Positions 1-56,365 of a stretch of 64,000 nt of DNA are shown here, in pieces. How positions within the stretch are numbered: the first letter of the stretch is position 1; each line of letters opens with the position of its first letter. The notes beneath the pieces were generated by a model. It saw only the letters and a list, made by a program, of their open reading frames with translations. It did no database searches and had not been told where the DNA came from. The stretch is from Pseudoalteromonas sp. R3. Lineage in GTDB: Bacteria > Pseudomonadota > Gammaproteobacteria > Enterobacterales > Alteromonadaceae. The translations under genes and the position numbers were made by a program. Location: contig NZ_CP034835.1 in NCBI RefSeq assembly GCF_004014715.1, positions 1,116,001 to 1,180,000 of the forward strand, read 5' to 3'.

Positions 1-51
1 CAACAGCCCCGCGGGTTAAAGGTTTAACTTAAACAATGCTGAACATCGGCA

Positions 52-1296
52 TTATGTATCCGTTGGTTGAGGTACCGCTGAATACAAATACTTAAGACTA
101 TTAATGGTATCTTTTGCTTTAACATAGGCATCCTCACCCTGCTTTGCTGTCACAATGCAAAAGGCAGAACGTTCAAAGCTACTGCTAAGGTGTGAGACAA
201 TATCGCCCTCAGTTTTCATAATGACAAAGTGTGTTACAGCATCGTCATTTTTCAGGCTGGCTGTATTTTCGACTTTTTCGACTTTAAATTGGCCAGTAAA
301 AGAAGGGGCTAGAAATGCAATTGCTGCACTTCGTACGGGCGTGACCGACGCTGGGAGCTGAGATGCAATTTTTTGTCCCAGAGATTGTTGGATGGTGAGT
401 GTGAGCAAGTCAATTTCTGTGGCCTGCTTAACCAGCTCGAATATCCTGTCTCCCCCCAGCCGGGTGTGCGTTTCTATGAATCTGGGACCTTGTTCAGTCA
501 GGATGATTTCTGTGTGTGAAGGGCCATTTTGGATCCCAACTACTTCAATGATTTTGCTAACAAACTGGTGTATTTGCGCCTGCTGTGTTTCGCTAATGGG
601 GGCTGGCACCATATGTCCCAGTTCAACAAAGCTGTCCGGATGCTTGTATTTTTTGGTCACCGCGACAATATAAGGCAGGCCATCTTCCGAAATGGCTTCC
701 ACGCTGAACTCTTCACCAACCAGGAATTCTTCAAGTAGGAAGGGGTATGTAAGGTGTTCAAGTGCGCAGTCCAGCGCTTGTTGATCATAAATTTTTTTGA
801 CATCCAGGCTGCCGGTTGCAGCTAAAGGTTTAATAATGACAGGGAAGCCATGTGTGGCGACGAAATCTTCCACTGTGCTGAGGCCCTCAGCCACATGATA
901 GGCTGTTTTATCTATATTGTGCTCGGCCAGCAGAGCGCGAGTTAAATGCTTATTGTGGACCTGCTTGATGGTTTGTTCAGATACTGGGAAAGGGAGCGCT
1001 AATGCCTGGCTGATCTTGAGTGCATGCAATTGCAAGTCATCGTTGTAGGTACATACTGCATCAAATGGGGTGTGTTGGTGAAGTAACACCGCATGCTCCA
1101 GGAAATCGTCTTCTGTTGCGTTATCAGCAAAGCAGAATACGCCCTGATAGCCAAATTTAACATCTGCTTCGAGCGCCGCGCTGAGCTTTATGAACAGTAC
1201 TATGTCATGGCCCATGGCTTTCAGTACTTTATGTGCAGGCCTGACGGTTCCCAGTAGCAGCACTCTCATTTTTTTACTGACATTGTCCTTACTCAT
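52..1296 (-). CDS. ATP-grasp carboxylate-amine ligase (fourth of four)
   Basis: This 414-residue protein has the layout of ATP-grasp amino-acid or dipeptide ligases of the BacD/carbamoyl-phosphate-synthase-like type: an N-terminal pre-ATP-grasp Rossmann part (about 1-115), the ATP-grasp fold (about 120-310) and a C-terminal subdomain. Visible ATP and Mg contacts are FPVIIKP (K156), LEEFLVGEE (E189-E190), GPSHTE (E263) and RFIETHTRLGGD (E275). Such enzymes activate a carboxylate as acyl phosphate and couple it to an amine. The start overlaps the stop of the upstream ligase gene (ATGA), with AGGAA about 8 nt before it, so translation is probably coupled. It is the last operon gene that can be seen; the cluster may continue past the left edge. 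The substrate cannot be read from the sequence. Confidence 0.85.
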   Translation of the reverse strand: MSKDNVSKKMRVLLLGTVRPAHKVLKAMGHDIVLFIKLSAALEADVKFGYQGVFCFADNATEDDFLEHAVLLHQHTPFDAVCTYNDDLQLHALKISQALALPFPVSEQTIKQVHNKHLTRALLAEHNIDKTAYHVAEGLSTVEDFVATHGFPVIIKPLAATGSLDVKKIYDQQALDCALEHLTYPFLLEEFLVGEEFSVEAISEDGLPYIVAVTKKYKHPDSFVELGHMVPAPISETQQAQIHQFVSKIIEVVGIQNGPSHTEIILTEQGPRFIETHTRLGGDRIFELVKQATEIDLLTLTIQQSLGQKIASQLPASVTPVRSAAIAFLAPSFTGQFKVEKVENTASLKNDDAVTHFVIMKTEGDIVSHLSSSFERSAFCIVTAKQGEDAYVKAKDTINSLKYLYSAVPQPTDT

Positions 1297-2525
1297 TCGG
1301 CTAATTCCTGTTCGGTTGATGATGGCTTAATGGTTTTTATGTTCAACTTACGCTGTACATCAGTCAGTGTTGTTGTGACACATTGAGGCTTTTCCCCCGC
1401 GATGAGCACGAACCCAGAGCGGCTGGAAGAGCAGGTCGCTTGCTCAACACGGTCCCCTTTATTCAATGTAATATTTAGTTTGATGACGCCAGGTGTGGCA
1501 CTGGCTTCGTGATGGCCTTCAATTGCAGAGAAAATGCCAGGCTCTGGTGTGAAGAATCTTACCGCTGCATGGTTAAACTCAGGGGGGTGCCTGGGCGATG
1601 GCAGGTTTAACAGGCTAGCCACCGTTTCCATAAACAAATCGACGCCCCGGGTGAGCCTTACCATTTCCCAAATACTATCACCGCCGGGCCTGGGTTGTGT
1701 TTCTATGATGTAGACTTCGCTATTGAACACTTTTACTTCAGTATGAGAGGGACCGGTCTTCATGCCAATTTGGTCCAGTAACCCTGTCACTGCTGATGAA
1801 ATTTTTCGTGCCACTTTTGCAGACAGGTGAGCGGGTTGATTGTGCCCTAATTCAACAAAGTGAGGGGCACCCGTGGTGAGCTTCTCGGTGATGGCGAGTA
1901 TTTCGTGCTTACCCTGCTTGCTAAAACTCTCGATGCTATATTCATCGCCACCAATAAATTTCTCTACAATCAATGTTCCTGATGTACATTGCTGACAATA
2001 GATGAGAGCACTGTTTAGCGATGCGGGAGAGTCGACCTTACAAACACCAATGCTGCCCACACCCTCTTCAGGTTTTATGATAACCGGATACCCCAGGTCA
2101 GTGCAGGCATTGCTCAGCTCGTTTAGATCAGTGATCGAATGGTAAGGGACGAGTGCACTGGTATTATGTGGCGCGTTGGCAATGGCGGCCCTCATCAGGC
2201 TTTTGTTTTTCGCCAGCTCTACTGTTAGCGTATTACAATTTCCCGGGATATTGAGCCACTCAGAGACTCGGGCTGCGCCAGGCAGGCCCCGTTCAGTAAA
2301 TGAACAAACAAGATGTAATTGATGATCTGTATGTATTCGGGTGACTTCGTGTTTCAGGTCAGTAAGCTGTTCATAATCGAGCTCAGTACTAAACAGACAC
2401 AGCCTCTTTTGTGATGCATCCAGTAACCCGGGTTTTTGGATAAAAAAGAGCGTCAGTCCGAGCGACGCTATGGACTCTAAGTGATAAACACTCCCGCCAA
2501 TTATCAAAACATTCTTGCTGTTCAT
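1293..2525 (-). CDS. ATP-grasp carboxylate-amine ligase (third of four)
   Basis: This 410-residue protein has an ATP-grasp fold with YPVIIKPEEGVGS (K151), LIVEKFIGGDE (E188), GPSHTE (E263) and YIIETQPRPGGD (E275). These are the nucleotide and Mg ligands expected of L-amino-acid ligase-type enzymes. It is similar in length and motif spacing to its downstream neighbour (GPSHTE and an IET box at the same residue numbers), so the two may be tandem duplicates that have diverged in specificity. It starts 8 nt after the stop of the class IV aminotransferase gene and overlaps the next ligase gene by 4 nt, so it sits inside one transcription unit. The reaction type is known for the family; the partners joined are unknown. 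Confidence 0.85.
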   Translation of the reverse strand: MNSKNVLIIGGSVYHLESIASLGLTLFFIQKPGLLDASQKRLCLFSTELDYEQLTDLKHEVTRIHTDHQLHLVCSFTERGLPGAARVSEWLNIPGNCNTLTVELAKNKSLMRAAIANAPHNTSALVPYHSITDLNELSNACTDLGYPVIIKPEEGVGSIGVCKVDSPASLNSALIYCQQCTSGTLIVEKFIGGDEYSIESFSKQGKHEILAITEKLTTGAPHFVELGHNQPAHLSAKVARKISSAVTGLLDQIGMKTGPSHTEVKVFNSEVYIIETQPRPGGDSIWEMVRLTRGVDLFMETVASLLNLPSPRHPPEFNHAAVRFFTPEPGIFSAIEGHHEASATPGVIKLNITLNKGDRVEQATCSSSRSGFVLIAGEKPQCVTTTLTDVQRKLNIKTIKPSSTEQELAE

Positions 2526-2533
2526 GGCATCTC

Positions 2534-3376
2534 TTAGGCAGTGGTTAAGTTAGCAATATAGGCTTCGTATTGCTTTGAAAGAAACTCAAAACACGCGCAG
2601 TTGGTGTAATGTCTTCCATTCAGAGATGCCGCGCGAACCACGCCAGCCGCGGTACCCGTCAAAAGAATTTCATCTGCTGTTTTTAAGTCATAGGTATTGA
2701 TTGAGCGTTCAACCAGGTCATAGTGGCTGCGTTTGAGTAATTCAATACAGATGTTCTTGGTGATCCCGTCCAGTGCACCGTCTTTAAGTGGTGGATAGGA
2801 AACCTGATTGCCAGATACGATGAACAAGTTTTCGGTGGTGCATTCAGATACATTGCCTTCGCCATTTAACATTACGGCTTCTTCCGCCCCTAATGCAGTC
2901 GCTTCCATTTTGGCCAGAATATTATTGAGATAGTTAAGTGACTTGATCCTGGGGTCCAGAGCGGAGGCTCTGTTACGGGTGACTGAACTGATGATCAGTT
3001 TAATGCCCGCATCATTATCGTACAGCTTGATTGGGCTTGCGATAAGGATCACGGTTGGTTGTTGGCAGCTTCTTGGGTCGATGCCCAGTTTTCCTTCTCC
3101 TCGGGTGACAATCAATCTGATGTAACCATCACCTTGATGGCTTTTCGCCACGTCATTGAGAATGTGCAGCATGTCGGTTTTGCTGTATTGGATAGAAAGA
3201 TCAATGGCTTTTGCAGATTGATACAGCCTGTCTACATGCTCCTCGGCGAATAGCACTGCGTCACCAAAAAAACGAAACCCTTCAAAAATCCCATCTCCAT
3301 ATAAAAGCCCATGATCCAGCACACTGACCACTGCATCCTGTTTTTCTACAAACTGCCCATCTTTCCAAAATATCAT
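2534..3376 (-). CDS. Class IV PLP aminotransferase (BCAT/DAAT-like)
   Basis: This 280-residue protein is of typical length for fold-type IV PLP enzymes. YGDGIFEG (about 26-33) is the usual N-terminal motif. RIKSLNYLNN carries the likely Schiff-base lysine K145, and GNVSECTTENLF supplies E178 for the pyridine nitrogen. LLTGTAAGV near the C terminus resembles the phosphate-binding turn. The KSLNYLNN string looks more like branched-chain aminotransferases than aminodeoxychorismate lyase, but D-amino-acid aminotransferase activity cannot be excluded. The ATG follows immediately after the stop of the LanC-like gene, so the genes are co-translated. In this cluster it probably supplies or consumes an amino acid or 2-keto acid, possibly paired with the dehydrogenase-like first gene. 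Confidence 0.85.
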   Translation of the reverse strand: MIFWKDGQFVEKQDAVVSVLDHGLLYGDGIFEGFRFFGDAVLFAEEHVDRLYQSAKAIDLSIQYSKTDMLHILNDVAKSHQGDGYIRLIVTRGEGKLGIDPRSCQQPTVILIASPIKLYDNDAGIKLIISSVTRNRASALDPRIKSLNYLNNILAKMEATALGAEEAVMLNGEGNVSECTTENLFIVSGNQVSYPPLKDGALDGITKNICIELLKRSHYDLVERSINTYDLKTADEILLTGTAAGVVRAASLNGRHYTNCACFEFLSKQYEAYIANLTTA

Positions 3377-4615
3377 CTAGTTCACCTTATCCAATGTAAG
3401 AATACCTGTGTTTTTTAGTGCACAATCAGCCGCAAAGACGGCGGTGCCGATATCTCCGACCCAATATCTGTGTTTAAACTGGCCGACCTTCTCATGGGTT
3501 TTCAGACTACTGGCAATCGCGGAGTCACAAAACTGTTGTGCTTTGTCTAACCACATCGCATCGCCTGTTCTGCGGTACATAAACAGAAAGGCGTAACCAT
3601 TGCCGGCGGTTCCGTGGCATATCCCGCCAACTGATTTGCTTAATGGCCCTGCTTGCCAGGTCATATTGGCAGCTTGCTCCAACATCCGTTCAAACGCAGG
3701 GTCGTGGCTCTGATAGCCTGCCAGGGAGGTCACTATGCCGGGCGCGCCATGACACCATTGCACCAGCTTTGCTGTCCGATGCGGTCTGGGTGTGCCAATA
3801 CTTTGCGCCCAGTTGCAGCACGTATCACTATTGAGGCGGGTGTGAGCTAAAACGTCTACGGTATTGGCAAAAAATTCATCGCGCGCAGGAAAGTCTGGTA
3901 AGAGTGACTGTGAAGCCAGTATGGCGTGCGCATTGCCCGCATAACCGTGTGCAGCACCAAGGTGATAGACGGAGACGCCATCTAAAAATTGTTTCCAAAT
4001 TTTGTGCTGACCGTCAGGTGCGGGTTCCAGTTTGTAAATCATGGAGGCACAGATCTCTTGATATAAGTCTAACCAGCGAGCTTCTTGCGACAAGCGGTGC
4101 ATATGCAGACAGCACAGTGCACAGGCGGATTCTCCCCAAAACAACTCGTTTGATATCAGGCGTGCATGTTGCAGAGTAAGCTGAAATATCTGATCAGCGA
4201 TTCTGTTGCTTGGGTTGATCAAATATCGAAATAACAGAATACCTGACAGACCAAAAAACAATCCTGTTTCATAGTTGGGTGTGCTGTTACTGAGAAAGCC
4301 CTGCTCCAATTCGGCGCACTGTTTCTCAAGATCGATCTTTGGTTGTACGCCGAGCTGTTTGCAGAGGTAGTGGTAGCCCCACAGAGCACCCAGTTCGCCA
4401 TTGTAGAGTGTATAACTCCAGGATAGCGGTTCGTGAACTGCGTCGTATAGCTCGGTCAATTCCGCCGGGACTTCATGTGCGATGGGATGATTGTCCGCAG
4501 TCGCCGAACGCTGGTTCCTCAAGTATTCATATTCTTCTATCACCCGGCGTACATAGCTTAGAGGGTCTGCCTGGTTTGCTGTCAGCGCCGTGTGTCTGTG
4601 GGATTCCCAAATCAT
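3377..4615 (-). CDS. LanC/LanCL-like zinc protein
   Basis: This 412-residue protein has the repeated Gly-rich helices of the LanC toroid. Residues matching the catalytic set of LanC cyclases are present: GAAHGYAGN (H223), QWCHGAPG (C288, H289) and GICHGTAGN (C333, H334). C288, C333 and H334 would bind zinc, as their counterparts do in nisin cyclase NisC. The WCHGAPG and CHGTAGN wording is closer to the stand-alone LanCL family than to many lantibiotic cyclases. LanC enzymes add Cys thiols to dehydroamino acids, and LanCL proteins add glutathione to dehydrated residues. No LanB or LanM dehydratase and no obvious precursor peptide occurs nearby; its neighbours are four ATP-grasp ligases. The substrate may therefore be a small ligase-made peptide. 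The family call is strong, the reaction is inference. Confidence 0.85.
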   Translation of the reverse strand: MIWESHRHTALTANQADPLSYVRRVIEEYEYLRNQRSATADNHPIAHEVPAELTELYDAVHEPLSWSYTLYNGELGALWGYHYLCKQLGVQPKIDLEKQCAELEQGFLSNSTPNYETGLFFGLSGILLFRYLINPSNRIADQIFQLTLQHARLISNELFWGESACALCCLHMHRLSQEARWLDLYQEICASMIYKLEPAPDGQHKIWKQFLDGVSVYHLGAAHGYAGNAHAILASQSLLPDFPARDEFFANTVDVLAHTRLNSDTCCNWAQSIGTPRPHRTAKLVQWCHGAPGIVTSLAGYQSHDPAFERMLEQAANMTWQAGPLSKSVGGICHGTAGNGYAFLFMYRRTGDAMWLDKAQQFCDSAIASSLKTHEKVGQFKHRYWVGDIGTAVFAADCALKNTGILTLDKVN

Positions 4616-4628
4616 ATACTAATCCAGT

Positions 4629-5843
4629 TTAGTGTCTTGGTTCGAAAGAAAAAGTATTTTTGTACCAGGTGTTTACATTCTGAATACAAGCATCAAGCTG
4701 AGCAGGAGTATTGGCTGCTAACAGACAGCAAAATAGGTGACTCACTGAATTGCTGCCGCCGTTATAATGCTGGCCATGTATAAAGTTGGCGTGGTATTCA
4801 ATAATCCCCAGATCTTGTGGCACCGCATAGTTTTTGACTATCAAGGTACCTGTTAGTGGTGGAAACAACAGGTAGGCGGTGTACTCTGCCGGAGTAGGTG
4901 AAAAGTCGTTGCGATGAAAGGTTTTTCCCATCTGTAGCTGAATAAAAATGTGATTGATATCGATATTGAATGCTCTGGCAATAGACTGAGGTATCAAGGC
5001 TCCGGCGGGCCGTGACGCAATTTCACACAACAGAGGGTTGTTACCGGGTTGGTAAAAGATCTCACAGTGAAACACGTAATTTTCTGTGTCGGGCATAGCC
5101 TCAATGACACGCTTCGCAAACGTTTTAAGAATGCCGGCATCATCACTGTGCTGTGACAGTAAAATACTGCCATGTGTTTGACCATCCAGAAAGGACAGGT
5201 TCGGCGAAATATATTTGTGAACGCAACTAAAGACTACCTCTCCTTGACTGACAATACCATCAACATGATAAACGTCATAAGATACAAACTGCTCAAGCAT
5301 CAGGCTCTGATACTTTTCAAGTTGTGGGTAATCACCGACTGAGGATTCGTCCTCCAGAATGAAGGTATCCCGGCTGCCTGAACTATCCAATGGTTTGATA
5401 ACCATTGGGAAGTCATTCTGTGTGCTCAACTGGGCAGTCAGGTTAACAGGACTGACTTTCGTAAAACCAGGAACGTCAATGTGCTGGGCGGCACACAGAG
5501 ATTTCATTACGTATTTATCTCTAAATGCGTTGGCGGAAGTCAGGCTTTGACCTGCGATACCGAACTGTGCTCGTAACTGTGCACTTAAAATTGTATCTGC
5601 TTCGACATGGAACAAAACCAGGTCAATGTGTCGGTTATTAATAAACGACAGTACTTCTTCTAAGACAAAGGGAGCCGTCTGTGCATAACACACTTCATCT
5701 GTGGTTGTTTCATCCACCAACTCAGCCGGGCAAGATGTCATCAGTAGCAGGTGGCAGTTTTCAAAGGTCTCTTTGGCCCACTGTGATAACTTGAATGAGC
5801 ATTCACCCAGGAAGTTTTTGTGCTGCAGAGCCAGAATATTCAT
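4629..5843 (-). CDS. ATP-grasp carboxylate-amine ligase (second of four, divergent)
   Basis: I start this 404-residue protein at 5843 because that ATG overlaps the stop of the upstream ligase gene (ATGA) and has GAGGGAGA just before it; an in-frame start lies 18 nt further up. ATP-grasp motifs are FPMVIKPLDSSGS (K150), LMLEQFVSYD (E184), FHCEIF (E261) and LLCEIASRPAGA (E274). The GPSHTE box shared by the other three ligases is replaced by YVFHCE, so this is the most divergent of the four and probably uses a different acceptor or donor. It is followed 13 nt later by the LanC-like gene. Confidence 0.82.
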   Translation of the reverse strand: MNILALQHKNFLGECSFKLSQWAKETFENCHLLLMTSCPAELVDETTTDEVCYAQTAPFVLEEVLSFINNRHIDLVLFHVEADTILSAQLRAQFGIAGQSLTSANAFRDKYVMKSLCAAQHIDVPGFTKVSPVNLTAQLSTQNDFPMVIKPLDSSGSRDTFILEDESSVGDYPQLEKYQSLMLEQFVSYDVYHVDGIVSQGEVVFSCVHKYISPNLSFLDGQTHGSILLSQHSDDAGILKTFAKRVIEAMPDTENYVFHCEIFYQPGNNPLLCEIASRPAGALIPQSIARAFNIDINHIFIQLQMGKTFHRNDFSPTPAEYTAYLLFPPLTGTLIVKNYAVPQDLGIIEYHANFIHGQHYNGGSNSVSHLFCCLLAANTPAQLDACIQNVNTWYKNTFSFEPRH

Positions 5844-7093
5844 TGTTCTCCCTCTTGCCACTCAATATATAAGTTATCTTTAACCTGTTGATGAAAGTGG
5901 TGCATGTCCTGAAATGTATGATGCTCAGAAATGATGAAGCCGGGATAAGATGTACAAAGTGGGTAGCCCGGAACATAGTCTCCCTGTTTGTAATTGGTGA
6001 CGACTCGCTGTGTTTGCGCCACTGAATTAACCCATTCCAACCCCTGATAACCGGTAAAAAAGCCACCTGTGCCTAATGGGATCACGTAATTACCCGCATA
6101 TTTTGACTTTTTACTTTGAAAGGTGGCTGGGTCAAGTGCACAGCCTGTGGCAAGTTTAAAGCAGGCCTCAAATAGCTCGATCCCAGAGGACAGTCTGATC
6201 AACTCAGCAGGTACCCCAGAACCTCCCACACGGGCACCCACTTCAATGATGTACGGAATACCGTTACAAACACGCAATTCGGTGTGGGATGGACCATTGC
6301 GCAAGCCCACCGCTGTCAATGCACGCTCCACGGTGGTGACTATGCGTGCTTTTAGGGTTGCATCCAGTTGTGCAGGTACCTGATAAATAGATTTTTCAAA
6401 ATAGGGTCCCTGACAGTCTCCCTTATTGCCTATCGAGATAAACTCCAGCTTTCCGTCAACGGAAAATGTGTCACAAACCAGTTCCTCACCCTGTACATAC
6501 TCTTCAACAATAATGCCGCCCTTATCGACATAAAGAGATTCTTTGTCCAGTGAACGTGAGTTTGACGTTTGGGTGAGTTCAATAGCCGCTTTAAGTTCTT
6601 GCTCGTTATTGGCCTTAATCACTCCAATACTGCCAGCGCCTGCTGAGGGCTTTACGACAACGGGGAAGCGAATTTGAGTCATGTCTTCAATATGCCTGCC
6701 ATCGACAAAAAAAGGCTGGGGTATGCCTGCTTCTGTCAGTCGAGTTCGCATAATTAGCTTGTCACGACACGCTATGGCACATTCCAAACCGTTATGTTTG
6801 AGCGATGATTTCACACAGGCTTGCTCGACCCAGGGGATCAGCTGCTCACGCATGGTAAAGATGCCATTTAAGTTATGTTGGCTAAAAAAAGTTGCAAATT
6901 GCTCGTAACTTGATTGAGGCGCACCAAACAAGTCCAGTTCAATGATGTCTTTGCAAACGGGAGAATCCGTAAAGCAGGTTTCACCTTGACACACGACTTG
7001 ATAAATCTCGTACCCGAGCCGTTCAGCCGCTTCAAATATAAAGGTAAGCCCGGCAGATTTGTGACCAATTAAGGCAATTCTATTTTTGATCAT
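5840..7093 (-). CDS. ATP-grasp carboxylate-amine ligase (first of four)
   Basis: This 417-residue ATP-grasp enzyme has FPVVVKPSAGAGSIG (K148 and a Gly-rich loop), IIVEEYVQGEE (E197-E198), GPSHTE (E272) and YIIEVGARVGGSG (E284). The last string is very close to the Mg and substrate site of L-amino-acid ligases and related peptide-bond-forming ATP-grasp proteins. Its N-terminal 115 residues form the expected pre-ATP-grasp Rossmann unit. AAGGATT precedes the ATG, and only 3 nt separate it from the upstream cyclotransferase-like gene. That placement suggests, but does not prove, that this ligase adds the glutamyl group that the neighbour could remove. Confidence 0.85.
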   Translation of the reverse strand: MIKNRIALIGHKSAGLTFIFEAAERLGYEIYQVVCQGETCFTDSPVCKDIIELDLFGAPQSSYEQFATFFSQHNLNGIFTMREQLIPWVEQACVKSSLKHNGLECAIACRDKLIMRTRLTEAGIPQPFFVDGRHIEDMTQIRFPVVVKPSAGAGSIGVIKANNEQELKAAIELTQTSNSRSLDKESLYVDKGGIIVEEYVQGEELVCDTFSVDGKLEFISIGNKGDCQGPYFEKSIYQVPAQLDATLKARIVTTVERALTAVGLRNGPSHTELRVCNGIPYIIEVGARVGGSGVPAELIRLSSGIELFEACFKLATGCALDPATFQSKKSKYAGNYVIPLGTGGFFTGYQGLEWVNSVAQTQRVVTNYKQGDYVPGYPLCTSYPGFIISEHHTFQDMHHFHQQVKDNLYIEWQEGEQ

Positions 7094-7096
7094 TTG

Positions 7097-7576
7097 CTAA
7101 TCCTTAATTCGTGATGTTAAAGCAAATATCTTGTCTTCAATTTTTTGTCGATAATGGTCTGGGAGTTGGCAATCTTTGAGCCCTTGCTTGACCAGTGCTG
7201 CATATCTGCTTCCAGGGTTGCCTTCTTCCGGTGTTGTATAGTTAGCAATATATGTCAGAGCCCGGATTTCTTTGCCATCTTCGCGAATGAGTTGCACCTC
7301 TTTTTCGGCATAACGATTTTTGAAGAAAGCTTCGCGAACTCTGATTTGATTGAGTTGCGAGTCGTTAATCTTGAAAACCCCACCCCAAACCTGCGCGGTA
7401 TGATTGGCTTCAATGTTAAGAAAGCAATCCAGGCCATTTGTCGATGGGTAGTTAAACAAAAGATCGTACTTTGGCAGCATAAAAGCACCGGCAAAAATCC
7501 CTGCGGCATTCTCTTGGATGGTCTCAGACAGAGATTTGAAGTTCATACAGGAACCATAAGCAAAATAGTTAAACAT
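7097..7576 (-). CDS. Gamma-glutamylcyclotransferase-like (AIG2/GGCT fold)
   Basis: This 159-residue protein opens with YFAYGSCMN, the YGS substrate loop of the GGCT/AIG2 fold. VREAFFKNRY provides a glutamate (E82) seven residues before a tyrosine, the spacing of the catalytic Glu in this family. Family enzymes release a gamma-glutamyl group as 5-oxoproline from a free amine. BtrG in butirosin biosynthesis is a known case where such an enzyme removes a gamma-glutamyl protecting group put on by the ATP-grasp ligase BtrJ. The start codon overlaps the restored reading frame of the PLP enzyme by 8 nt, so translation is probably coupled. A deprotection role is an inference from the ATP-grasp neighbours. 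Confidence 0.78.
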   Translation of the reverse strand: MFNYFAYGSCMNFKSLSETIQENAAGIFAGAFMLPKYDLLFNYPSTNGLDCFLNIEANHTAQVWGGVFKINDSQLNQIRVREAFFKNRYAEKEVQLIREDGKEIRALTYIANYTTPEEGNPGSRYAALVKQGLKDCQLPDHYRQKIEDKIFALTSRIKD

Positions 7577-8680
7577 CAGAACTTTCCATAGCCTCTTTAA
7601 TTAAAGATAGGAGTTGTTGCTCAAACAATGCGTTGTTGTCGGGGTCCAAGCCTACGCTGACTCTGAATACCAGGCCCTGCGGTTGAGCTAGTCGTCGGCT
7701 TTGCATATCTGTATAAACCAATACCGGCTTACTTCCCCCCAGCTGTAGCCAATTTTGAGGTGAGCAAGTTGTTCAAAAATACGCCGTTCGTTCACTGCGT
7801 TCCGTGGCAATAGGAACGAGAAAAGTGAACCAGGCAAACCTGTGTTGTAGCCGTTTTGGTCAGTAAAATTGGTATCAAATTCGGGATAAATCAGCGCCAG
7901 CTCTGGACATTGTTGTCGCAGAGATTGAATCATTTGTAGGCATTGGCTGTTCTGTTCTTTGTACCTTACCTTGAGAGATTCCACACGTTGGCACAATGCA
8001 TATATCGGATTCTGATCCACATAATTGCCCATAATGGTGGAGTATTGGGCCAGAGGTGCTTGGTTGTGCTGTTTACAGGTGACTGAACCCATAAATATGT
8101 CAGAGCCGCCAGACATAAATTTGGTACACGAGTGAATACAGTAATCAGCTCCCAGTTGCAGAGGTTTGCAACTTAGGCCTGCTGACCAGGTATTGTCTAC
8201 CAGGCTAGTTGCATCGTGCATCTGGCACTGACTGAGGATATAACGAAGGTCGCATACATCTAACGTCATTGAGCCGACAGGCTCCAGATATACAATTTGA
8301 TACTGCCTGAAATCCAGCGATTTAACGACATCGTTATTATAAATCGCTTTATAAACAACCCGTATATTCAGCTTTTTTGATAAATAATTTAGGAAGGATT
8401 TAGTAGGCTCGTATATGTTGTCAGATGCTAATATTGTATCCCCACTTGAGGTGATGGCAGATAAGCAAGTTGTGATAGCCTGAAGTCCACTCGAATAGAG
8501 TTCAGTATAATCTCCACCTTCTAACTCAGAGATAAATTGACATAGGTGCTCTTTGACAATATTTCCATGACGCCCGTAAGTATATTTTTTCTTTGTTTGG
8601 TCTTTGAATTCTTCTAAATTCTCAAAATAAACAGTTGAAGAATAAGTGATAGGGGGATTCGCAAACTCTTTGAAATTCAT
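7569..8680 (-). CDS. Cys/Met-metabolism PLP enzyme, frameshifted near the C terminus
   Basis: The first frame encodes 330 residues of the cystathionine beta-lyase/gamma-synthase family: YTYGRHGN (Y35), SSGLQAI, VDNTW (D162) and the Schiff-base lysine in HSCTKFMSGG (K187). The frame stops at 7688 just after GYSWG, where the family normally reads SWGG followed by a C-terminal strand. Reading on in the adjacent frame from a six-G run (7735-7740) gives GSKPVLV and then GLVFRVSVGLDP, the expected end, with a stop at 7569 that overlaps the next start. One missing G explains the break. It may be a sequencing error, slippage or real inactivation. The upstream site AAGGGGG is a strong RBS. The enzyme would make or break C-S or C-beta bonds, which fits a partnership with the LanC-like protein. 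Confidence 0.78.
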
Positions 8681-8708
8681 TTTTATATCCCCCTTAGGTG
8701 TTTTTTAA

Positions 8709-9848
8709 TTAAGCTTCAGCGAGCTTGCGCATCGCTTTAACCGTATGGGTACCATTTTCTGAGGCAATATTAAGCACCTCTTTGGTTAGTTTACCCACGG
8801 TCATCTGAGCATATTCGTGTGCATACTCTTTGTTAAAGTCACGAATGCCGTTAACACGACTGAACCACTCAAGGCGTGAAGTCAATGCACCGCCTAAGGT
8901 GATCAACTGCCCTGGAAGGAATGCAATGTTTTTCTCTTTAAGCAGCTCACAAATGACGTCGCCGTAGCGTCCCTCTGGTAGGCATAAGTTATGGGCCAGC
9001 GTTAGATAGGTGTCTCTGGGTAAGACTTCGATAGGAGAGTTTTCGAGCTCTTTGCCCCAGGTCGCTGCTACGATCAATCCGCCGCGAGACAAACACTCAG
9101 CGGTAAATTCACCGTACACTGACTCAAATACGGTGACGCCCTCAGGAGGCTGTACTGTGCCAGCGTCATACTCTAAATCGCAAACTGCAATATCTTTGAA
9201 GTTTCTGTTGATAAAGTATTTTGTCAGGTCCGTGCCCATAGCGCCTGCTGAGCCAATGATTGTGACAGGAATAGAAGTGTCGCTAACGAATCCAGCCTCT
9301 TCCATTGCGCCAATAATGCCAGAGGTAGAGTAGCTAGATTTACCGCCACAGCCGCCAATGTCGCAGCTAACACCCAGTACATGGCTGGTATGTTTGTACA
9401 GGTAATCTGAACAGTCTGCGAATTTTCCAAAATCCGGAGTAAGCTTTAGTACACCCTCTAATTCTTCAAGCTTGGCACCAACTTTTTCAAACACTTCATC
9501 TATCGTGGCTTGAAATTTAGGGTCGGAAGGATTAGACAAGACTTGATAAATGTCGTTATTCTTAGGTCTGATAAGGCAACGTCCACCACCCACTTTACTC
9601 TCCAAGAGACCTTCAGGTAACTTGCTGTCTTGTGGTGAAATGGTTAACGCGAAATTAATCAGAGTGTTCTTTAGCTCGCTTTCGCTGACGATCAAACGTA
9701 CCAGATCATCATGAACTTCTTCATCTGCCTTTTCTGGCTTTACCAGGCGAGAACCACCGTAATAGTAATCCATGCCGGCTTTTTGCTGATATCCAATCCA
9801 AACATCCGCGTTATCTGTAGGAATTTTAAACACCATTTGGTCAATCAT
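8709..9848 (-). CDS. Glu/Leu/Phe/Val dehydrogenase-like protein with altered catalytic lysine
   Basis: This 379-residue protein matches the order of leucine-dehydrogenase-type amino-acid dehydrogenases: a substrate domain with GGGR (87-90) and TPDFG (137-141), a hinge HVLGVS, then a GG-rich segment and a Rossmann motif IIGSAGAMG (about 198-205) ending in an acidic CDLE. In active leucine dehydrogenases the GGGK lysine is catalytic; here it is arginine. The substrate pocket may have changed, or the protein may do a different redox or binding job. AGGGAAG precedes the ATG. It is the first gene of the operon, behind a plausible sigma70 promoter at 9960-9989. It probably sets the supply of the special building block. 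Confidence 0.7.
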   Translation of the reverse strand: MIDQMVFKIPTDNADVWIGYQQKAGMDYYYGGSRLVKPEKADEEVHDDLVRLIVSESELKNTLINFALTISPQDSKLPEGLLESKVGGGRCLIRPKNNDIYQVLSNPSDPKFQATIDEVFEKVGAKLEELEGVLKLTPDFGKFADCSDYLYKHTSHVLGVSCDIGGCGGKSSYSTSGIIGAMEEAGFVSDTSIPVTIIGSAGAMGTDLTKYFINRNFKDIAVCDLEYDAGTVQPPEGVTVFESVYGEFTAECLSRGGLIVAATWGKELENSPIEVLPRDTYLTLAHNLCLPEGRYGDVICELLKEKNIAFLPGQLITLGGALTSRLEWFSRVNGIRDFNKEYAHEYAQMTVGKLTKEVLNIASENGTHTVKAMRKLAEA

Positions 9849-10432
9849 ATTTCTTCCCTAATTGAAGAGTTATTGAAAATTCGTGTTTTTTGGTGACAAA
9901 GGGATTTTTGTTATGAATGAAGTTCATGTGTTTATTTTGCTTTGTCAAAAAGTGAAAAAAATGTACCCAAAGTCAATTTAACTTGTCAAGCGACTCCTCT
10001 GCGGGGTTTTCTTATATAGGTACATTGTTGGGTTTTTAATCCTTAAAAGCCAAATAAAGTTTCATGAGTTGAGCCGGGGGATCTGAGTTGTACTGACAAC
10101 GTAGTGACTTGTTTATTGTTTTTCTTAAATCGATGGTTTTCGTCAAAGTCACTCAAAATTAAAGGTTTATTTCGTTTTTTTTGTTGAGTTATTTTGTATT
10201 GTTTTTCTCAGATTTTTAGTGAGGACTTGTCTTTTCTTTTTTTAAAAAGAGTTTTGTATTTTGGGATTATTTATTTAACTTGAAATTTAATCAAGTTACT
10301 TTTCGTTTTCTAGCTTGTAAGGCTGGGTTTTTCTGCTTCTTTTTTCTCGGATTAAATTTCTTGTTGCAGATGGGTATATTTTGATTCAGTATAATTTCTC
10401 GGATTGCCTGAACAGGATTTTGAGAGGGTGTT
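9849..10432. other. AT-rich divergent intergenic region
   Basis: About 580 bp separate the minus-strand operon from the plus-strand MFS gene. The stretch is clearly more AT-rich than its surroundings, with many T runs around 10120-10280. It holds the candidate operon promoter at 9960-9989. I see no convincing gene: short frames such as 9913-9981 (22 codons) lack support. Its size and base bias suggest a regulated, possibly H-NS-bound or horizontally acquired control region. Confidence 0.5.
9960..9989 (-). promoter_or_regulatory. Candidate sigma70 promoter of the ATP-grasp/LanC operon
   Basis: On the minus strand TTGACA (9984-9989) is followed after 18 bp by TACATT (9960-9965). Transcription would start near 9953 and leave a leader of about 105 nt before the dehydrogenase-like ATG at 9848. 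It is a sequence match only, but it is in the right place and on the right strand. Confidence 0.45.
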
Positions 10433-11647
10433 TTGAGTATAAATTCAAGAATAATACTTTTGATGCTTGGGGAGTTTGCAATTAACACCGGTAGAGGAGC
10501 ATTAACTCTGATACTCGGCGCAATTCTTTACCAAGAAACTGGTGGGCTCTGGGCATTTGCTCTGGCGTTTTTGAGCGATTTTATCGTTGCGCTATTTATA
10601 CAGGGTATCGCTGGCGCCGCAGTTGACCGATTTGGGCCCGGGAAAGTACTGAACTTGTCCCTCGGTATCAGTTCTTTGCTGTTATTCGCTTGCTGGGTTT
10701 TGATATCTCAGTTGAGCTCCACCGCGTTATTTATTTTTTCTCTGGCTGTATTACTTAATATTTTTCGCCCATTTATACGAACAGCGGTGTTCGCTTTGCT
10801 ACCGGCGCTATTCAGCCAATCTGAACTCGAAAAAGCAAACGGTGCTGTGTCACTTGCATTTCAGGTAGGTCAGTTTGCAGGTATGGCGCTTGCAGCACTT
10901 AGTCTTGAATTGGGCACGCATGGCACAGCTATTTTTACTGTGTTAATGGCCTTTGTTGTCAGTACTGCCTGCTATTTGATGATTAGCGCCAAATACCTAA
11001 ATCTTAGAGTGCGTTCAGATGTGAAATCTAAAATTATTTCCTGGCGTGCCTTCACTGAAGTGTTGGCGCACGCAACCATACTAAGAGGGTGTATGATCGG
11101 CTCAGTGGACTATGCCCTGATTGCTGTTTTTAATCTATTACTGGCGCCTGTTGTTGCGCATAATTTTGATAATCTCAGTCGCTGGCTGGGTATACTGGAT
11201 GGTGCGTTTGCCCTTGGTGCTATTCTGGCAGGTGTGTTTGTTATAAAGCAAAGTAAGGATATAGGGCTTAAGTATCGATACTCTTTACTGGCGCATGTCA
11301 GTGCAGCACTCTTATTTTTGGGGTATGCACTACAATGGCATGCATATCTGATTTTGTTGTTGGTACTACTATTTGGCTTATCCACGACTGTATCTGTTGT
11401 AATGTGGAACACAGCATTACAGAAGAGTTCTCCCGAAGCGATGCATGGCCGTGTTGCCAGCGTAAAATATATCTTTAACACGCTTGCGGTTACATTGGCG
11501 ATTGCCTGTGTATCTTTTGCTAATGAACAGTCATTTCTCGTTGCTACCTACGCGGCGGTGACAACCGCAGCTGTCTGCTTTGTACTCGCTTTTGTGCTGA
11601 TGCGATATAGAAGTTCTCACTCGCTGAGTTTATCGAGAGAAAGTTGA
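10433..11647 (+). CDS. MFS transporter, probable exporter of the cluster product
   Basis: This 404-residue, very hydrophobic protein has about 10-12 membrane segments. It resembles the MFS_3/EntS-like type, with the A-motif-like VDRFGPGKVLNL in the loop after helix 2 and a second motif HGRVASVKYIF in the matching loop of the C-terminal half. The start is TTG at 10433 with GAGAGGG about 5 nt before it; an ATG nine codons on is the alternative. It is divergent from the ATP-grasp operon and is the only transporter next to it, so export of the product or self-resistance is the simplest role. The hairpin at 11657-11684 closes the unit. Confidence 0.8.
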   Translation: MSINSRIILLMLGEFAINTGRGALTLILGAILYQETGGLWAFALAFLSDFIVALFIQGIAGAAVDRFGPGKVLNLSLGISSLLLFACWVLISQLSSTALFIFSLAVLLNIFRPFIRTAVFALLPALFSQSELEKANGAVSLAFQVGQFAGMALAALSLELGTHGTAIFTVLMAFVVSTACYLMISAKYLNLRVRSDVKSKIISWRAFTEVLAHATILRGCMIGSVDYALIAVFNLLLAPVVAHNFDNLSRWLGILDGAFALGAILAGVFVIKQSKDIGLKYRYSLLAHVSAALLFLGYALQWHAYLILLLVLLFGLSTTVSVVMWNTALQKSSPEAMHGRVASVKYIFNTLAVTLAIACVSFANEQSFLVATYAAVTTAAVCFVLAFVLMRYRSSHSLSLSRES

Positions 11648-11656
11648 CGCTCACAG

Positions 11657-11684
11657 AGCAACCGTCAGGCTCTTTGGTTGCTCA
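11657..11684 (+). terminator. Hairpin after the MFS gene
   Basis: GAGCAACC (11657-11664) and GGTTGCTC (11677-11684) form a perfect 8-bp stem just after the MFS stop. A clear U-tract is missing, so it may be a weak terminator or an mRNA-end stabiliser. Confidence 0.4.
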
Positions 11685-11800
11685 TCGATATGCCGTTAGT
11701 TGCTTATTTCTAAGTTAGCGTATGGGCTTTGCGTGTTTCCTAAAACCCACTTGAAAGATCGCTAAGCGCTGGTTACTCTTGCTAAAACAAGGAACTAACA

Positions 11801-14800
11801 TTGAGCCGCTGCGTGCCGGAATTTCTCCCTCTTAAGAACTATCGTAAGGCTATCAGCATTGCTTTGCTGGTGCCTATGCTACTGGCGGTGGTACTCTGTT
11901 TTCATCTATATCAGATCAAACTTGAACGCCAGTATCAGGTGTATCAGGCCCAGTTTTATGTACTTGCAGGGCAAGTCGAGCAGGAAACGCTGGCCGCACA
12001 AACAGTGATTACCAGTATTCGCCATAGTCTGGCGGAGCCTATTCGCTACCAGTTGGATGAAAATTGGCAACAAAATATTCGCCAGCAAAGCGGGTACTTT
12101 TACCGGCAGCTTCCCGATAACGGAGGGGAAGTGGTCGGGCTGGGCAGATTTGTTCCCACAGCTGCACTGGTTGAACAGTGGCAGCAAATTATGGCTTTGG
12201 GTCCAAGTTTTGATACTGCTTTGGCCCTGATTGATGAGCTCGAAGCCGTGGTATTTATTCAGGATAATGGTTTTGCCTTTGTTAAACGGCGCGATACCAG
12301 CCAGAGCAACTTATTGACGGCTATAGTGGAGTCGCGCTTTACACCGCAATTCAGCCAGGGGATCACCGCCACAAGTATGCCAACACGGGTATTTGGCAAG
12401 CATTATTTTGCGCTCGGACAGCGCCTGACCAGTGGCTCGCTTGCACAGATACTGCTTATCTACGATGTCGATAAACTGGCTGGACGATTACAACAGATGA
12501 CCTTTGGTGGTGGGGAACTGGCGTTGAAGGGCACTCAGCCCGGCGTAACCTTGGCTACCAGCAAAGGGTTTCGAGAGCCAGAAGCGAATCCTTCGCACAA
12601 TGATAAGCTTCCCTGGGAAGGTGGTGTGCGTTTTAGTTACCAGCCCCCAGCTCAGCCTTTTACACTTCGTTTTGTTCAGAGTGAAGCAAGCTTTTCTGCA
12701 CCTGCGAGGTATGAAGCATTACTCGAACTAGGTTTTCTGATCTTGTTTATTGTGTCTACCTTTGCAGCTTATGTATGGCTCAACGCCCAGGTATTTATTC
12801 GCCCCCTTAAGCATTTTGTAAAGTACCTAACCTATCAGGAAAATACCCCTGAAACGACGATGAATTATGCGGTTCCTAGAGACTGGCAGCCATGGTTTAT
12901 TGAAATCAAACGGGTTGTTACACAAAAGCGCAATGCCTTACAGCAGTTGCAGGAGAACAACTTAAGGCTTGATGAACAGGTTCAGCAGCAGAAGAAAGCA
13001 CTCTCACGAAGCCTTGAAGCCAAAGAGCGCCAGGCCGCCTTACTTAAAACTGTACTAAATTCAGTGCCTGATCTGGTTTACTATAAGAACATCGATGGAT
13101 CTTTTATTGGCTGCAATGAGGCGTTTGAGCGGTTTATTGGAGTAGAACAGGTTGACTTGGTTGCGCACGAGCATCACGAAGTCACCGAACGACATCTGGC
13201 CCTGCTTGACCTGGAGCTGGCAATGAATCGCCAGGAGCAAAGCCTGACAGATACTCTGTTATTGGAAGGGCGCAGCTATCTCATCACGGTTTCTCCGTTA
13301 TATAACGACCTGCGAAAGCGTATTGGCACTTTGGGGGTTGCCCGGGACATTAGTGAACAACAACAGGCGCTGACCGCACTCAGGGCATCGGAGCAAAATT
13401 TTAAAGCGGCAATTGAGTACGCGCCAAATGGCGTGATCTTATTGTCTATCGACCGGCTTGTGTTGGAGCTCAATCGGACGGCGCGTAAGTTATTCGACCG
13501 AGTAGATATTGGCAGTAGTCTGTACAGTGTGTTTGAAGATGCAGATGTCGAAGCCTTAAATGATGTACTGGATCATTGTTTACACGAGCGACAGGGAGCC
13601 AGTGAACTGAGTCTGGCCCAGCAAGACCCAAAACGCTGGTTGCATCTGAGTGTTTCTTTGGTCTGGGACAAACAGAAAAATCCAAAGTACTTCGTAATCC
13701 ACGTGCAAAATGTCACGGCGCTCATTCGCGCCCGGCTTGATGCCGAACGGGCCAATCACGCCAAAAGCCGTTTTATTGCCAATATCAGTCATGAGATCCG
13801 TACACCTATTAATGCCATTCTGGGCCTGGTGAGTATTCTAAAACCTGCTTTGGATGAACGGAAGGAGCAACATAAGCTGGAGCAGATTGAAAGCGCTGCT
13901 CAACAATTATTGGCGATGCTAAACGATATTCTCAATTTTGCCCGGCTTGAAAGCGGACAGGGAAAATCTAACAACCAGCCGTTTTGCATTGTTGATCTGA
14001 TAGCTAACTTGAGTAGCTTAATTACGCCTTTAAGCAGTGCCAAACAGTTGGAATTTGAAATTGAGGTTGAGCCCTTTATCTGGCCCAGGTTGATTGGCGA
14101 TGAGGCGCGTATAAAGCTTGTGTTGATGAACTTGCTGGGGAACGCGGTGAAGTTTACTGAGCATGGCCGGGTAGGATTGACCTTGTCCCTGCAGCAGGAT
14201 AACCATGGTCCGGAGCAGGCCATAAGATTCTGTGTTTGGGACACCGGCCCGGGCATTAGTGAAGAGGATCAGGCGCGCTTATTTGATGCGTTTACTCAGG
14301 GGAATGAAAGTAGCTCACGTCCACATGAGGGCATTGGACTCGGCCTGGCGATAGTGAAACAGGTTATTCAATTACTTGGGGGAGAAGTCACGCTTTCGAG
14401 TAAACCCCAGGTAGGCAGCCGGTTTGAGTTTACTCTACGCTTAGAGCGCGCGGCATTGGCAGAAGATGACAGCCGTAAATCTCTGTTTCTTATTTTGGAG
14501 CAACAAGGGCCTCTGCCTTATCTTGCCCATCAGGGTATACGCCAGGGAAGTGAGACGGAATTGAACACACTCAATACAACCAGCTCTGTTTCCTATCTGG
14601 CCTGTGACAACGCAGAGCGTGTTCGTAGATTAAGTCAGACTGAGTTTGGACGAAAAATACACTGGCTGGTGCCTGATACAGACTCTTTCACCGACGCACT
14701 GCCTGCAGAGTCTGATGCCATCAGGTTGTCAGCACCGGTGTTTTACCAGAGCTTGAGTGTGTGTTCACTGGAAAGGTCGGTCACAGATTCACCAGGCACC

Positions 14801-15508
14801 CATACCTTAACGCCTTTGTTGTGTATCGTGGTGGATGATAATCCGGTAAACCTGGATATCAGCAGAACTGTACTGGAGCAGCGCGGGGCAACCGTGATTG
14901 CGCTTAGCAATGCAGAGAATATAGTCACCATTTGTCAGAAGCTGCGCCCGGATGTGGTATTGATGGACCTTTATATGCCGAATATTGATGGTTACGAGGC
15001 CAGTCGACAACTGCGACGACAATTCGACGGTCAGGCACTTCCTATCGTAGCGCTGACTGCGAATGCTCATGAACAGGAAAAGCAGCAAGCGCTGGCGACC
15101 GGACTCAATGGGTTTTTAGTAAAGCCGATCACACCCGCTGATTTGTGCCTGGCACTGCTGGAGTATGTGCCAGCTGGTGAGGTTGTGTTTGATTATTCGT
15201 TCGCACTGACACAAATGATGAATAAAGAGGCGTTGCTACGCACTATGCTCGAAAAGTTTGCTAAGCTTTGTGAAGAGTATATGACGAGTTTGCAGGGTGT
15301 TGAAAGTGCTACGGAACTGGCGAGCCTGGCACATACCATTAAAGGATCTGCTGCGGGTCTTGGTTTACGCCGTCTGGCAGAGCAGGCACGTCAATGCGAA
15401 GCGCAGTCAAAGCAAACTGATGAGTTAGCATCTGACCAGTTATCTGACCAACTCTATATGGCTGTAGAACAAACTTTGTGTTTTATTTCGTTGTGGCTAA
15501 AAGGATAA
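11801..15508 (+). CDS. Tripartite hybrid sensor histidine kinase
   Basis: This 1235-residue protein starts at a TTG with AAGGA before it. A first membrane helix (about 17-35) and a second (about 305-327) enclose a periplasmic sensor of about 270 residues. A coiled coil, two PAS-type regions (about 410-640), a HisKA box NISHEIRTP (His near 663) and a HATPase with NLLGNAVKF, DTGPGIS and GIGLGLAIVKQ follow. Next come a receiver domain with VLMDLYMPNIDGY (Asp near 1055) and a C-terminal Hpt with AHTIKGSAAGLG (His near 1178). The full phosphorelay is therefore in one chain, as in ArcB- or BarA-like kinases. It ends 4 nt before the response regulator gene, its likely partner. The signal sensed is unknown. 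Confidence 0.92.
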   Translation: MSRCVPEFLPLKNYRKAISIALLVPMLLAVVLCFHLYQIKLERQYQVYQAQFYVLAGQVEQETLAAQTVITSIRHSLAEPIRYQLDENWQQNIRQQSGYFYRQLPDNGGEVVGLGRFVPTAALVEQWQQIMALGPSFDTALALIDELEAVVFIQDNGFAFVKRRDTSQSNLLTAIVESRFTPQFSQGITATSMPTRVFGKHYFALGQRLTSGSLAQILLIYDVDKLAGRLQQMTFGGGELALKGTQPGVTLATSKGFREPEANPSHNDKLPWEGGVRFSYQPPAQPFTLRFVQSEASFSAPARYEALLELGFLILFIVSTFAAYVWLNAQVFIRPLKHFVKYLTYQENTPETTMNYAVPRDWQPWFIEIKRVVTQKRNALQQLQENNLRLDEQVQQQKKALSRSLEAKERQAALLKTVLNSVPDLVYYKNIDGSFIGCNEAFERFIGVEQVDLVAHEHHEVTERHLALLDLELAMNRQEQSLTDTLLLEGRSYLITVSPLYNDLRKRIGTLGVARDISEQQQALTALRASEQNFKAAIEYAPNGVILLSIDRLVLELNRTARKLFDRVDIGSSLYSVFEDADVEALNDVLDHCLHERQGASELSLAQQDPKRWLHLSVSLVWDKQKNPKYFVIHVQNVTALIRARLDAERANHAKSRFIANISHEIRTPINAILGLVSILKPALDERKEQHKLEQIESAAQQLLAMLNDILNFARLESGQGKSNNQPFCIVDLIANLSSLITPLSSAKQLEFEIEVEPFIWPRLIGDEARIKLVLMNLLGNAVKFTEHGRVGLTLSLQQDNHGPEQAIRFCVWDTGPGISEEDQARLFDAFTQGNESSSRPHEGIGLGLAIVKQVIQLLGGEVTLSSKPQVGSRFEFTLRLERAALAEDDSRKSLFLILEQQGPLPYLAHQGIRQGSETELNTLNTTSSVSYLACDNAERVRRLSQTEFGRKIHWLVPDTDSFTDALPAESDAIRLSAPVFYQSLSVCSLERSVTDSPGTHTLTPLLCIVVDDNPVNLDISRTVLEQRGATVIALSNAENIVTICQKLRPDVVLMDLYMPNIDGYEASRQLRRQFDGQALPIVALTANAHEQEKQQALATGLNGFLVKPITPADLCLALLEYVPAGEVVFDYSFALTQMMNKEALLRTMLEKFAKLCEEYMTSLQGVESATELASLAHTIKGSAAGLGLRRLAEQARQCEAQSKQTDELASDQLSDQLYMAVEQTLCFISLWLKG

Positions 15509-15512
15509 GAAA

Positions 15513-16415: not shown

Positions 16416-16445
16416 CGGGTTCAGAGTACAAGACTCTGATCCCGT
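16415..16445. terminator. Bidirectional hairpin between convergent genes
   Basis: ACGGG-tt-CAGAGT (16415-16427) pairs with ACTCTG-at-CCCGT (16433-16445) around a 5-nt loop. It lies between the stops of the plus-strand regulator and the minus-strand lipoprotein gene and could serve both. U-tracts are poor. Confidence 0.5.
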
Positions 16446-16456
16446 CAGGGCGCTGT

Positions 16457-16819
16457 CTATAGCAGGTGTGCCAGTGCAGTGTCACCAAAACCGACCAATT
16501 TATTATCTTTGAAAAGCAAAGGTGTGCACTCGTCTTTTGTAACTACACCGTCGGAGTGTTTGCTGTTGGTTGCAAAGTAAAGTATCTGATAAACCGTATC
16601 GTCTTTAGACACCATGTCTGTGTATTCAGGCGTGCCCAGCTTGCTCAGCACGCGCTGATATTCAGTACCCATTTTGAGTTGGCTGATTTTTTCACGGTTC
16701 TGTTTCTGTTCTTTCTTCCAGCCGCCGTGACCATTGTATTCGCCATCTGTGACTGCGACTACACAGCCTGTCAGTGCGGTTGAACTTAAGAGCGCAGTTG
16801 CGAGTAGTAGTTTTTTCAT
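16457..16819 (-). CDS. DUF3192-like small lipoprotein
   Basis: This 120-residue protein has a lipoprotein signal peptide with the lipobox LTGC (cysteine at about 19). The mature part KISQLKMGTEYQRVLSKLGTP and the later TPLLFKDNKLVGFG match the general pattern of DUF3192/SmpA-like small envelope lipoproteins. Its function is unknown. It stands alone, convergent with the upstream regulator gene. Confidence 0.75.
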   Translation of the reverse strand: MKKLLLATALLSSTALTGCVVAVTDGEYNGHGGWKKEQKQNREKISQLKMGTEYQRVLSKLGTPEYTDMVSKDDTVYQILYFATNSKHSDGVVTKDECTPLLFKDNKLVGFGDTALAHLL

Positions 16820-54364: not shown

Positions 54365-54365
54365 A

Positions 54366-55073: not shown

Positions 55074-55092
55074 AAAATGCTTCTCCCGGCTC

Positions 55093-56343: not shown

Positions 56344-56365
56344 CTCTATTCCTTAAATGACGTTC

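Follow-up and report, generated by a model that had tools for sequence, protein, structure and literature searches.

A LanC-like protein encoded among four ATP-grasp ligases in a predicted peptide operon of Pseudoalteromonas sp. R3

The 64,000-nucleotide stretch of the Pseudoalteromonas sp. R3 genome analysed here (contig NZ_CP034835.1, positions 1,116,001 to 1,180,000; hereafter the window) begins with an operon in which four ATP-grasp ligases are encoded together with a LanC-like protein, a gamma-glutamyl-cyclotransferase-like protein, and a pyridoxal phosphate (PLP) enzyme of Cys/Met metabolism. Gene content and sequence comparison place the operon in an uncharacterised family of ATP-grasp peptide clusters, and its LanC-like protein (gene F in the order A to I) is predicted to belong to a bacterial branch that is closer to eukaryotic LanCL proteins than to lanthipeptide cyclases. 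The ATP-grasp peptide cluster is a known kind of system; its extension by a LanCL-type protein, a cyclotransferase, and a C-S-lyase-like enzyme was not found described in the open-licence papers searched. According to our favoured but tentative reading, to which we give somewhat less than an even chance, the L-amino-acid ligases would build a small peptide for export, F would add sulfur to it, and the cyclotransferase C and the PLP enzyme B would trim the sulfur donor.

Ligases, operon and shared backbone

The case for peptide synthesis is carried by the ligases D, E, H, and I. Three of the four score above the Pfam cut-off for ATP-grasp domains, and ligase E, which lies below it (20.5 versus 23.2 bits), matches a solved L-amino-acid ligase (4wd3, 8e-21). 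In an alignment with eight plasmid-borne relatives, the ATP-binding Lys-Pro motif and the H-x-E ... E-x-x-x-R-x-x-G motif, which serve ATP and metal binding in ATP-grasp enzymes, are kept in all four, and these motifs predict four competent ligases. Since their pairwise identity is only 20-30%, the ligases did not arise by recent duplication and are likely to have different substrates. They are of the L-amino-acid-ligase (LAL) type and not of the RimK type that is found in pathways of ribosomally synthesized and post-translationally modified peptides (RiPPs). LAL-type ligases with intact ATP and metal motifs, and the lack of any carrier-protein nonribosomal peptide synthetase (NRPS) among the 12 operon genes and the divergent exporter gene in a Pfam search, fit an ATP-grasp peptide cluster.

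The initial annotation had described nine minus-strand genes with overlaps or tiny gaps and a divergent exporter; all nine open reading frames (ORFs; 52-9848) and the exporter gene of the major facilitator superfamily (MFS) were found in place (Table 1), and the listed families proved right in Pfam, NCBIfam, and solved-structure matches. Along the order A to I the spacing amounts to 28, 111, 3, -22, 13, 0, 8, and -4 bases, and the start of ligase E is probably the second in-frame Met codon, which gives an ATGA overlap with D. The proposed extent of 52..11647 had to be revised at its left end: the operon continues past the window edge with three more genes on the same strand, i.e., a resistance-nodulation-division (RND) permease (99-base gap), an HlyD-type membrane-fusion protein (-4), and an M3 peptidase (7), and comprises 12 genes plus the divergent MFS gene. 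From spacing and strand we infer a single transcript. The 584-base gap between A and the MFS gene, a presumed divergent promoter region, contains only short AT-rich ORFs and no convincing precursor-peptide ORF; a promoter scan of the gap gave 2 promoter-like sites versus 1.9 expected in shuffles and lends the presumption no support. No known RNA family was found at gathering thresholds in window positions 1-16500.

Table 1. Predicted features of the operon and its divergent exporter (window coordinates)
Feature	Position	Strand	Basis
Gene A, divergent Glu/Leu/Phe/Val-dehydrogenase-fold protein, 379 aa	8709..9848	-	Alignment with Leu-dehydrogenase-like relatives, solved structures
Gene B, Cys/Met-metabolism PLP enzyme, frameshifted near 3' end	7688..8680	-	Pfam, NCBIfam
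Gene B C-terminus in other frame, beside G run of coding strand	7577..7740	-	Translation in other frame
Gene C, gamma-glutamyl-cyclotransferase-like (AIG2/GGACT), 159 aa	7097..7576	-	Pfam, alignment
Gene D, ATP-grasp ligase 1, L-amino-acid-ligase type	5840..7093	-	Pfam, NCBIfam, motif alignment
Gene E, ATP-grasp ligase 2, NikS / 4wd3 type	4629..5861	-	Match to solved ligase, motif alignment
Gene F, LanC-like protein, bacterial LanCL-like branch, 412 aa	3377..4615	-	Pfam, profile and fold searches
Gene G, class IV aminotransferase, branched-chain type	2534..3376	-	Pfam, NCBIfam
Gene H, ATP-grasp ligase 3, LAL_C2 domain, backbone gene	1293..2525	-	Pfam, genus comparison
Gene I, ATP-grasp ligase 4, backbone gene	52..1296	-	Pfam, genus comparison
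MFS exporter, divergent, backbone gene	10433..11647	+	Pfam, NCBIfam, genus comparison
Intergenic region, gene A to MFS gene; presumed divergent promoter region	9849..10432	.	Position

A search of 108 genomes of the genus (including its own) with ligases E, I, and D, followed by annotation of nine loci (L135-L143), points to a shared backbone of H, I, MFS, and RND genes and a variable part consisting of A to G. In three other Pseudoalteromonas genomes (L135, L136, and L137), H- and I-type ligase genes lie next to each other along with genes for an MFS protein and an RND permease, and L138, from a fourth genome, has I, MFS, and RND without H. Identities to these relatives are 37-42% for H (L135-L137), 35-41% for I, 34-42% for the MFS protein (L135-L138), and 34-38% for the RND permease. 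The short gene beside RND in L135-L138 is a membrane-fusion gene by position only and has no blastp match to the fusion protein of the operon. If the family is defined by adjacent H and I genes, MFS, RND, and a small gene in the membrane-fusion position, the operon shows all of these features and the set is complete in L135, L136, and L137. The ribosome-free peptide pathway of the initial annotation is thus strengthened by four competent-looking ligases, an exporter pair, and the joint recurrence of ligases and exporters in relatives.

The view of the nine genes as a conserved unit, by contrast, was not upheld, because only the backbone recurs and A, B, C, and F have no blastp match at E 1e-4 in the nine loci. 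Ligase D has two matches only (29-30%) at E 1e-25 among the 107 other genomes of the genus, and a D-like stretch in L135 (31%, 213 residues) is a match to an H-type ligase. The fetched loci encode, among others, a 2OG-Fe oxygenase, a hydroxyacid dehydrogenase, an FAA hydrolase, Ldh_2, TauD, a class IV aminotransferase, DUF1611, and a luciferase-like protein; an M3 peptidase (32%) near the L136 cluster lies outside the run of ligase genes. The initial annotation had held that genes not staying together would speak against its reading, and such a dispersal is seen in part, as judged on loci of other species.

The known systems most similar in outline are those for bacilysin, rhizocticin, and the phosphonoalamides, which likewise combine LAL-type ligases with aminotransferases; the bacilysin cluster also has an MFS exporter. 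Unlike them, the operon encodes four ligases and an RND pump, the latter common to L135-L138, as well as the LanCL-like, cyclotransferase, and Cys/Met PLP genes that are unmatched in L135-L143. For the phosphonoalamides, an excerpt of the published account describes a convergent route that employs two ligases (PMC11867202). Within the genus, the locus L140 of Pseudoalteromonas xiamenensis (NZ_CP099918.1, 230001-250000) encodes a prephenate-dehydratase-like protein, a class IV aminotransferase, DUF6421, an RND pump, and an ATP-grasp protein; it looks bacilysin-like to us and shares aminotransferase class and RND pump with the operon. An NRPS locus distinct from the operon starts some 40 kb from it (window 51926-64000, minus strand) and runs past the right edge into L173. 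It encodes condensation, AMP-binding, and carrier domains together with MFS, HlyD, and MacB-type ABC export genes, and an open frame of at least 1,973 aa crosses the window edge.

The LanC-like protein and its relatives

Protein F scores above the Pfam cut-off for LANC_like (115.6 bits), a family and zinc site that it shares with the lanthipeptide LanC and LanM cyclases. Its nearest structural counterparts are nevertheless human LanCL1/LanCL2 and plant GCR2, to which it is about 20-22% identical: LanCL/GCR2 structures are top-ranked in fold searches, and in the sequence profile LanCL is ahead of the best lanthipeptide synthetase by approximately 30 orders of magnitude in E-value. The earlier proposal of a LanC fold outside the lanthipeptide setting can therefore be sharpened to a subfamily nearer to eukaryotic LanCL than to the cyclases. 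A lanthipeptide or other RiPP pathway was rejected as the leading reading, because the operon lacks a dehydratase, the gap lacks a convincing precursor, and the profile favours LanCL; the initial annotation had also seen neither precursor peptide nor dehydratase, and no convincing candidate for either was found in the operon.

The active site was compared with that of human LanCL1, for which an excerpt of PMC9934072 gives Cys276, Cys322, and His323 as zinc ligands, His219 as the acid, and His277 as the enolate stabiliser, and according to which the Gly end of glutathione is contacted by Arg4 and Lys317, its Cys carbonyl by His274, and its gamma-Glu end by His323, Arg364, Asp367, and Glu374. 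In F, the aligned residues are C288, C333, and H334 (zinc ligands), H223 (His219), H289 (His277), K327 (Lys317), and Q286 (His274). Among 42 relatives, H223, C288, C333, H334, and K327 are each conserved in 42, Q286 in 41, H289 in 40, and R7 in 37; R7 is a likely counterpart of Arg4, as suggested by the aligned ranges alone (start at model 3 / chain 0). F thus combines the predicted alpha,alpha-toroid with the zinc ligands and the equivalents of His219 and His277 expected of a LanCL protein. It differs from the eukaryotic proteins in its low identity, in the loss of the gamma-Glu contacts, and in an operon setting as opposed to proteome protection, and K381 and V386 set it apart from its own branch, where R and T, respectively, occupy these positions in 40 of 42 relatives each. 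In our reading, the thiol-activating machinery is intact and includes a carboxylate anchor, and the substrate pocket is changed.

An alignment scan with F across genomes of about 85,000 species yielded 331 stretches and 174 confirmed relatives, of which the best 80 (L028-L107) were analysed. They form a branch of stand-alone LanCL-like proteins that is widespread in bacteria (Proteobacteria, Nannocystis, Sorangium, Actinobacteria, and others), shows 28-39% identity to F over the matched stretch, and has a nearly invariant active site like that of F but no widely shared neighbours. The initial annotation had suggested looking for LanCL-like proteins together with three or more ATP-grasp genes, and here the outcome was negative: among the best 80 of 174 relatives, four loci (L085, L090, L095, L106) contain one ATP-grasp-like ORF and none contains two, in which the branch differs from the operon. 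Only 37 of the 80 loci are at least 20 kb long and many are cut short, so that this absence of neighbouring ATP-grasp genes is not proof. When the other operon genes were compared with the same 80 loci by blastp, D had a 25% match in L095, RND-like matches appeared in L095 and L106, and nothing else was found. A single-sequence scan of genome contigs with F matched 11 stretches and no relative, and in plasmids F had matches in three records (best in Microvirga, 32%); by tblastn, none of the other operon genes is present in the Microvirga locus or in four further fetched loci with F matches.

Searches with the remaining genes gave a similar picture. Gene A was absent from plasmids and, apart from its own genome, showed seven weak matches (E 3e-6 to 6e-4) in 369 genomes of the class. 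The plasmid search with gene B was uninformative, because 1195 records match, all at <60% identity. Gene C has a relative (29-36%) in 14 of 393 other genomes of the order, and no ATP-grasp or other operon gene was found near C relatives in four neighbourhoods and one Burkholderia megaplasmid. Ligase I was found in no other genome at E 1e-50 among 394 sampled in the order (at most four candidates scored per listed genome); its four relatives in L135-L138 stem from the separate search of the genus. For plasmid matches to E and H, no LanC is listed in the four annotated regions (Vibrio, Leisingera, and two Streptomyces); a fifth fetched region, from Photobacterium, is without annotation. In keeping with the initial annotation, no described pathway with this tailoring set of LanCL-type protein, cyclotransferase, and C-S-lyase-like enzyme was found in searches of open-licence PMC papers.

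Predicted route and competing explanations

The remaining genes suggest a route with several steps, of which the first would be the joining of amino acids by two or more of the ligases into a short peptide of probably three to five residues. G, and perhaps A, would supply or adjust a branched-chain-type amino acid, with A possibly altering oxidation state. Gene G is above the Pfam cut-off for Aminotran_4 (184.7 bits) and that for TIGR01122 (246.3 versus 245.55 bits), and its top-scoring model NF006185 stays below cut-off (316.9 versus 363 bits). For gene A, Pfam gives no match at E 0.001, and the similarity to solved Leu dehydrogenases is weak (8hpe, 6e-5); the protein reads GGGR where six aligned Leu-dehydrogenase-like relatives have GGGK, whose Lys is the catalytic residue of Leu/Val/Phe dehydrogenases, so that A lacks this hallmark of these enzymes. 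Its predicted structure (predicted local distance difference test score, 52.2) was not used.

F would then add a small thiol to an electrophilic residue, e.g., a dehydroamino acid or enone, by a zinc-assisted thia-Michael addition between two molecules like that of human LanCL1, which would result in a thioether. Subsequently, C would take off the gamma-glutamyl group and B would cleave the C-S bond to leave a thiol, as in glutathione-fed sulfur installation. C is above the Pfam cut-offs for AIG2_2 (37.0 bits) and GGACT (33.2 bits) and retains a Glu at the position aligned with the catalytic Glu of human GGCT, as expected of a gamma-glutamyl cyclotransferase. B is above the cut-off for Cys_Met_Meta_PP (189.1 bits), and its best NCBIfam model is cystathionine beta-lyase (185 bits versus a cut-off of 366). 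As to glutathione synthesis, the genome encodes the enzyme of its first step (gshA family, PF04262). Export would be accomplished by the MFS protein (MFS_1, 79.1 bits, above the Pfam cut-off) and the RND pump. A role in protection or processing is conceivable for the M3 peptidase, which is a diverged extra copy with 31% identity to the next one.

The order of C and B in this scheme is modelled on gliotoxin, a pathway that uses a PLP C-S lyase. According to an excerpt of PMC6923255, the glutathione-adding transferase GliG is followed there by the cyclotransferase GliK. The operon would resemble this relay in pairing a glutathione-adding enzyme with a gamma-glutamyl cyclotransferase, but it has a LanC fold and not a glutathione S-transferase, no NRPS, no matching dipeptidase, and a frameshifted lyase-like gene. 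A more specific version of our reading, which we regard as doubtful, is that a bacterial LanCL-type enzyme has been recruited to a ribosome-free peptide, where it would add glutathione or a carboxylate-ended relative that cyclotransferase and PLP C-S lyase convert to a thiol, a LanC-fold counterpart of the gliotoxin relay in which the glutathione S-transferase is replaced.

Several observations weigh against sulfur addition by F with trimming by C and B. LanCL1 residues Arg364, Asp367, and Glu374 correspond to K376, Q379, and V386 in F (owing to a nearby alignment gap, V386 is placed more securely than the other two), and because the gamma-Glu contacts are not kept, support for glutathione itself as the donor is weak. 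Gene B is frameshifted near its 3' end, before the conserved C-terminus and adjacent to a G homopolymer of the coding strand (7688-7740); its profile match stops at 330 of 381, short of a complete cystathionine beta-lyase fold. The C-terminus reads on in the other frame toward C and fills most of the 111-base gap, and the frameshift is either an assembly error or a real lesion. A dipeptidase of the gliotoxin kind is missing from the operon, the M3 peptidase representing an oligopeptidase family that acts on oligopeptides. None of the genes was recognisable as a source of dehydroamino acids, and among the 12 operon genes plus the MFS gene Pfam detected no dehydratase or lyase/kinase domain that could generate dehydroalanine or dehydrobutyrine. 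Finally, only a single genome showed the tailoring set, and since the examined relatives of F and C are stand-alone genes, genomic context gives a joint role of the two no support.

Among the competing explanations, a ring-forming role of F fares best, albeit as an unlikely one. The ligase-built peptide would contain both Cys and a dehydroamino acid, F would close a lanthionine-like ring, B would make or remove the leaving group, and C would deprotect the molecule by taking off a gamma-Glu group, the role of BtrG in butirosin biosynthesis. This proposal is compatible with the complete LanC active site of F and with the possibility of up to four ligations, and C and B would keep roles; however, the F subfamily is much nearer to the intermolecular LanCL enzymes than to cyclases, the residue at the carboxylate-binding Lys of LanCL1 is invariant in it, and the tested operon genes include no dehydratase. 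Somewhat less probable is a role of F in self-protection and not in biosynthesis: F would scavenge a reactive intermediate or product by adding glutathione to it, and the adduct would be recycled by C and the M3 peptidase. Stand-alone relatives without a shared neighbourhood in the examined loci are what would be expected of a general electrophile scavenger, and the diverged extra copy of the M3 peptidase is also in line with it, but F lies in the middle of the operon with zero gap to G, and the changes R381 to K and T386 to V at positions otherwise kept in 40 of 42 relatives suggest a new substrate.

We consider it improbable that the cluster has decayed and no longer makes a product, as the frameshift in B and the altered active site of A, without the catalytic Lys, might indicate: the other operon genes are open at the usual lengths of their families, the overlaps are intact, and a single change at a homopolymer is a common assembly error. 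A cryptic RiPP pathway, in which F would be the cyclase for a ribosomal precursor encoded elsewhere, is very improbable, since F is of the LanCL type, the operon lacks a dehydratase and RimK-type ligases, and the gap holds only short AT-rich ORFs, even though the same genome (5.82 Mb, two contigs) has, 3.3 Mb off as the contig is numbered, a LanC with an adjoining LanB-like frame that could be paired with F, and a kinase-LanC protein. This lanthipeptide-like locus (contig 2, 4418670-4429303; L007, L009) also has an ABC transporter beside the LanC, with the kinase-LanC about 9 kb away; the LanB-like and kinase-LanC identities are our reading of the translations.

Elsewhere in the window, positions 37206-39011 encode a protein of 601 aa that has a ricin-type beta-trefoil lectin domain at its C-terminus, and positions 29838-32735 encode the P protein of the glycine cleavage system, an ordinary housekeeping gene.

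If sulfur addition by F to a ligase-built peptide is true, LanC chemistry would not be confined to ribosomal peptides or protein protection and would also act on small molecules made by ligases. The stand-alone bacterial LanCL-like proteins, with their 174 relatives confirmed in one scan, would gain a testable activity. The operon would moreover represent a marine family of ATP-grasp peptide clusters, whose core of two ligases with MFS and RND export could be used to find new products.

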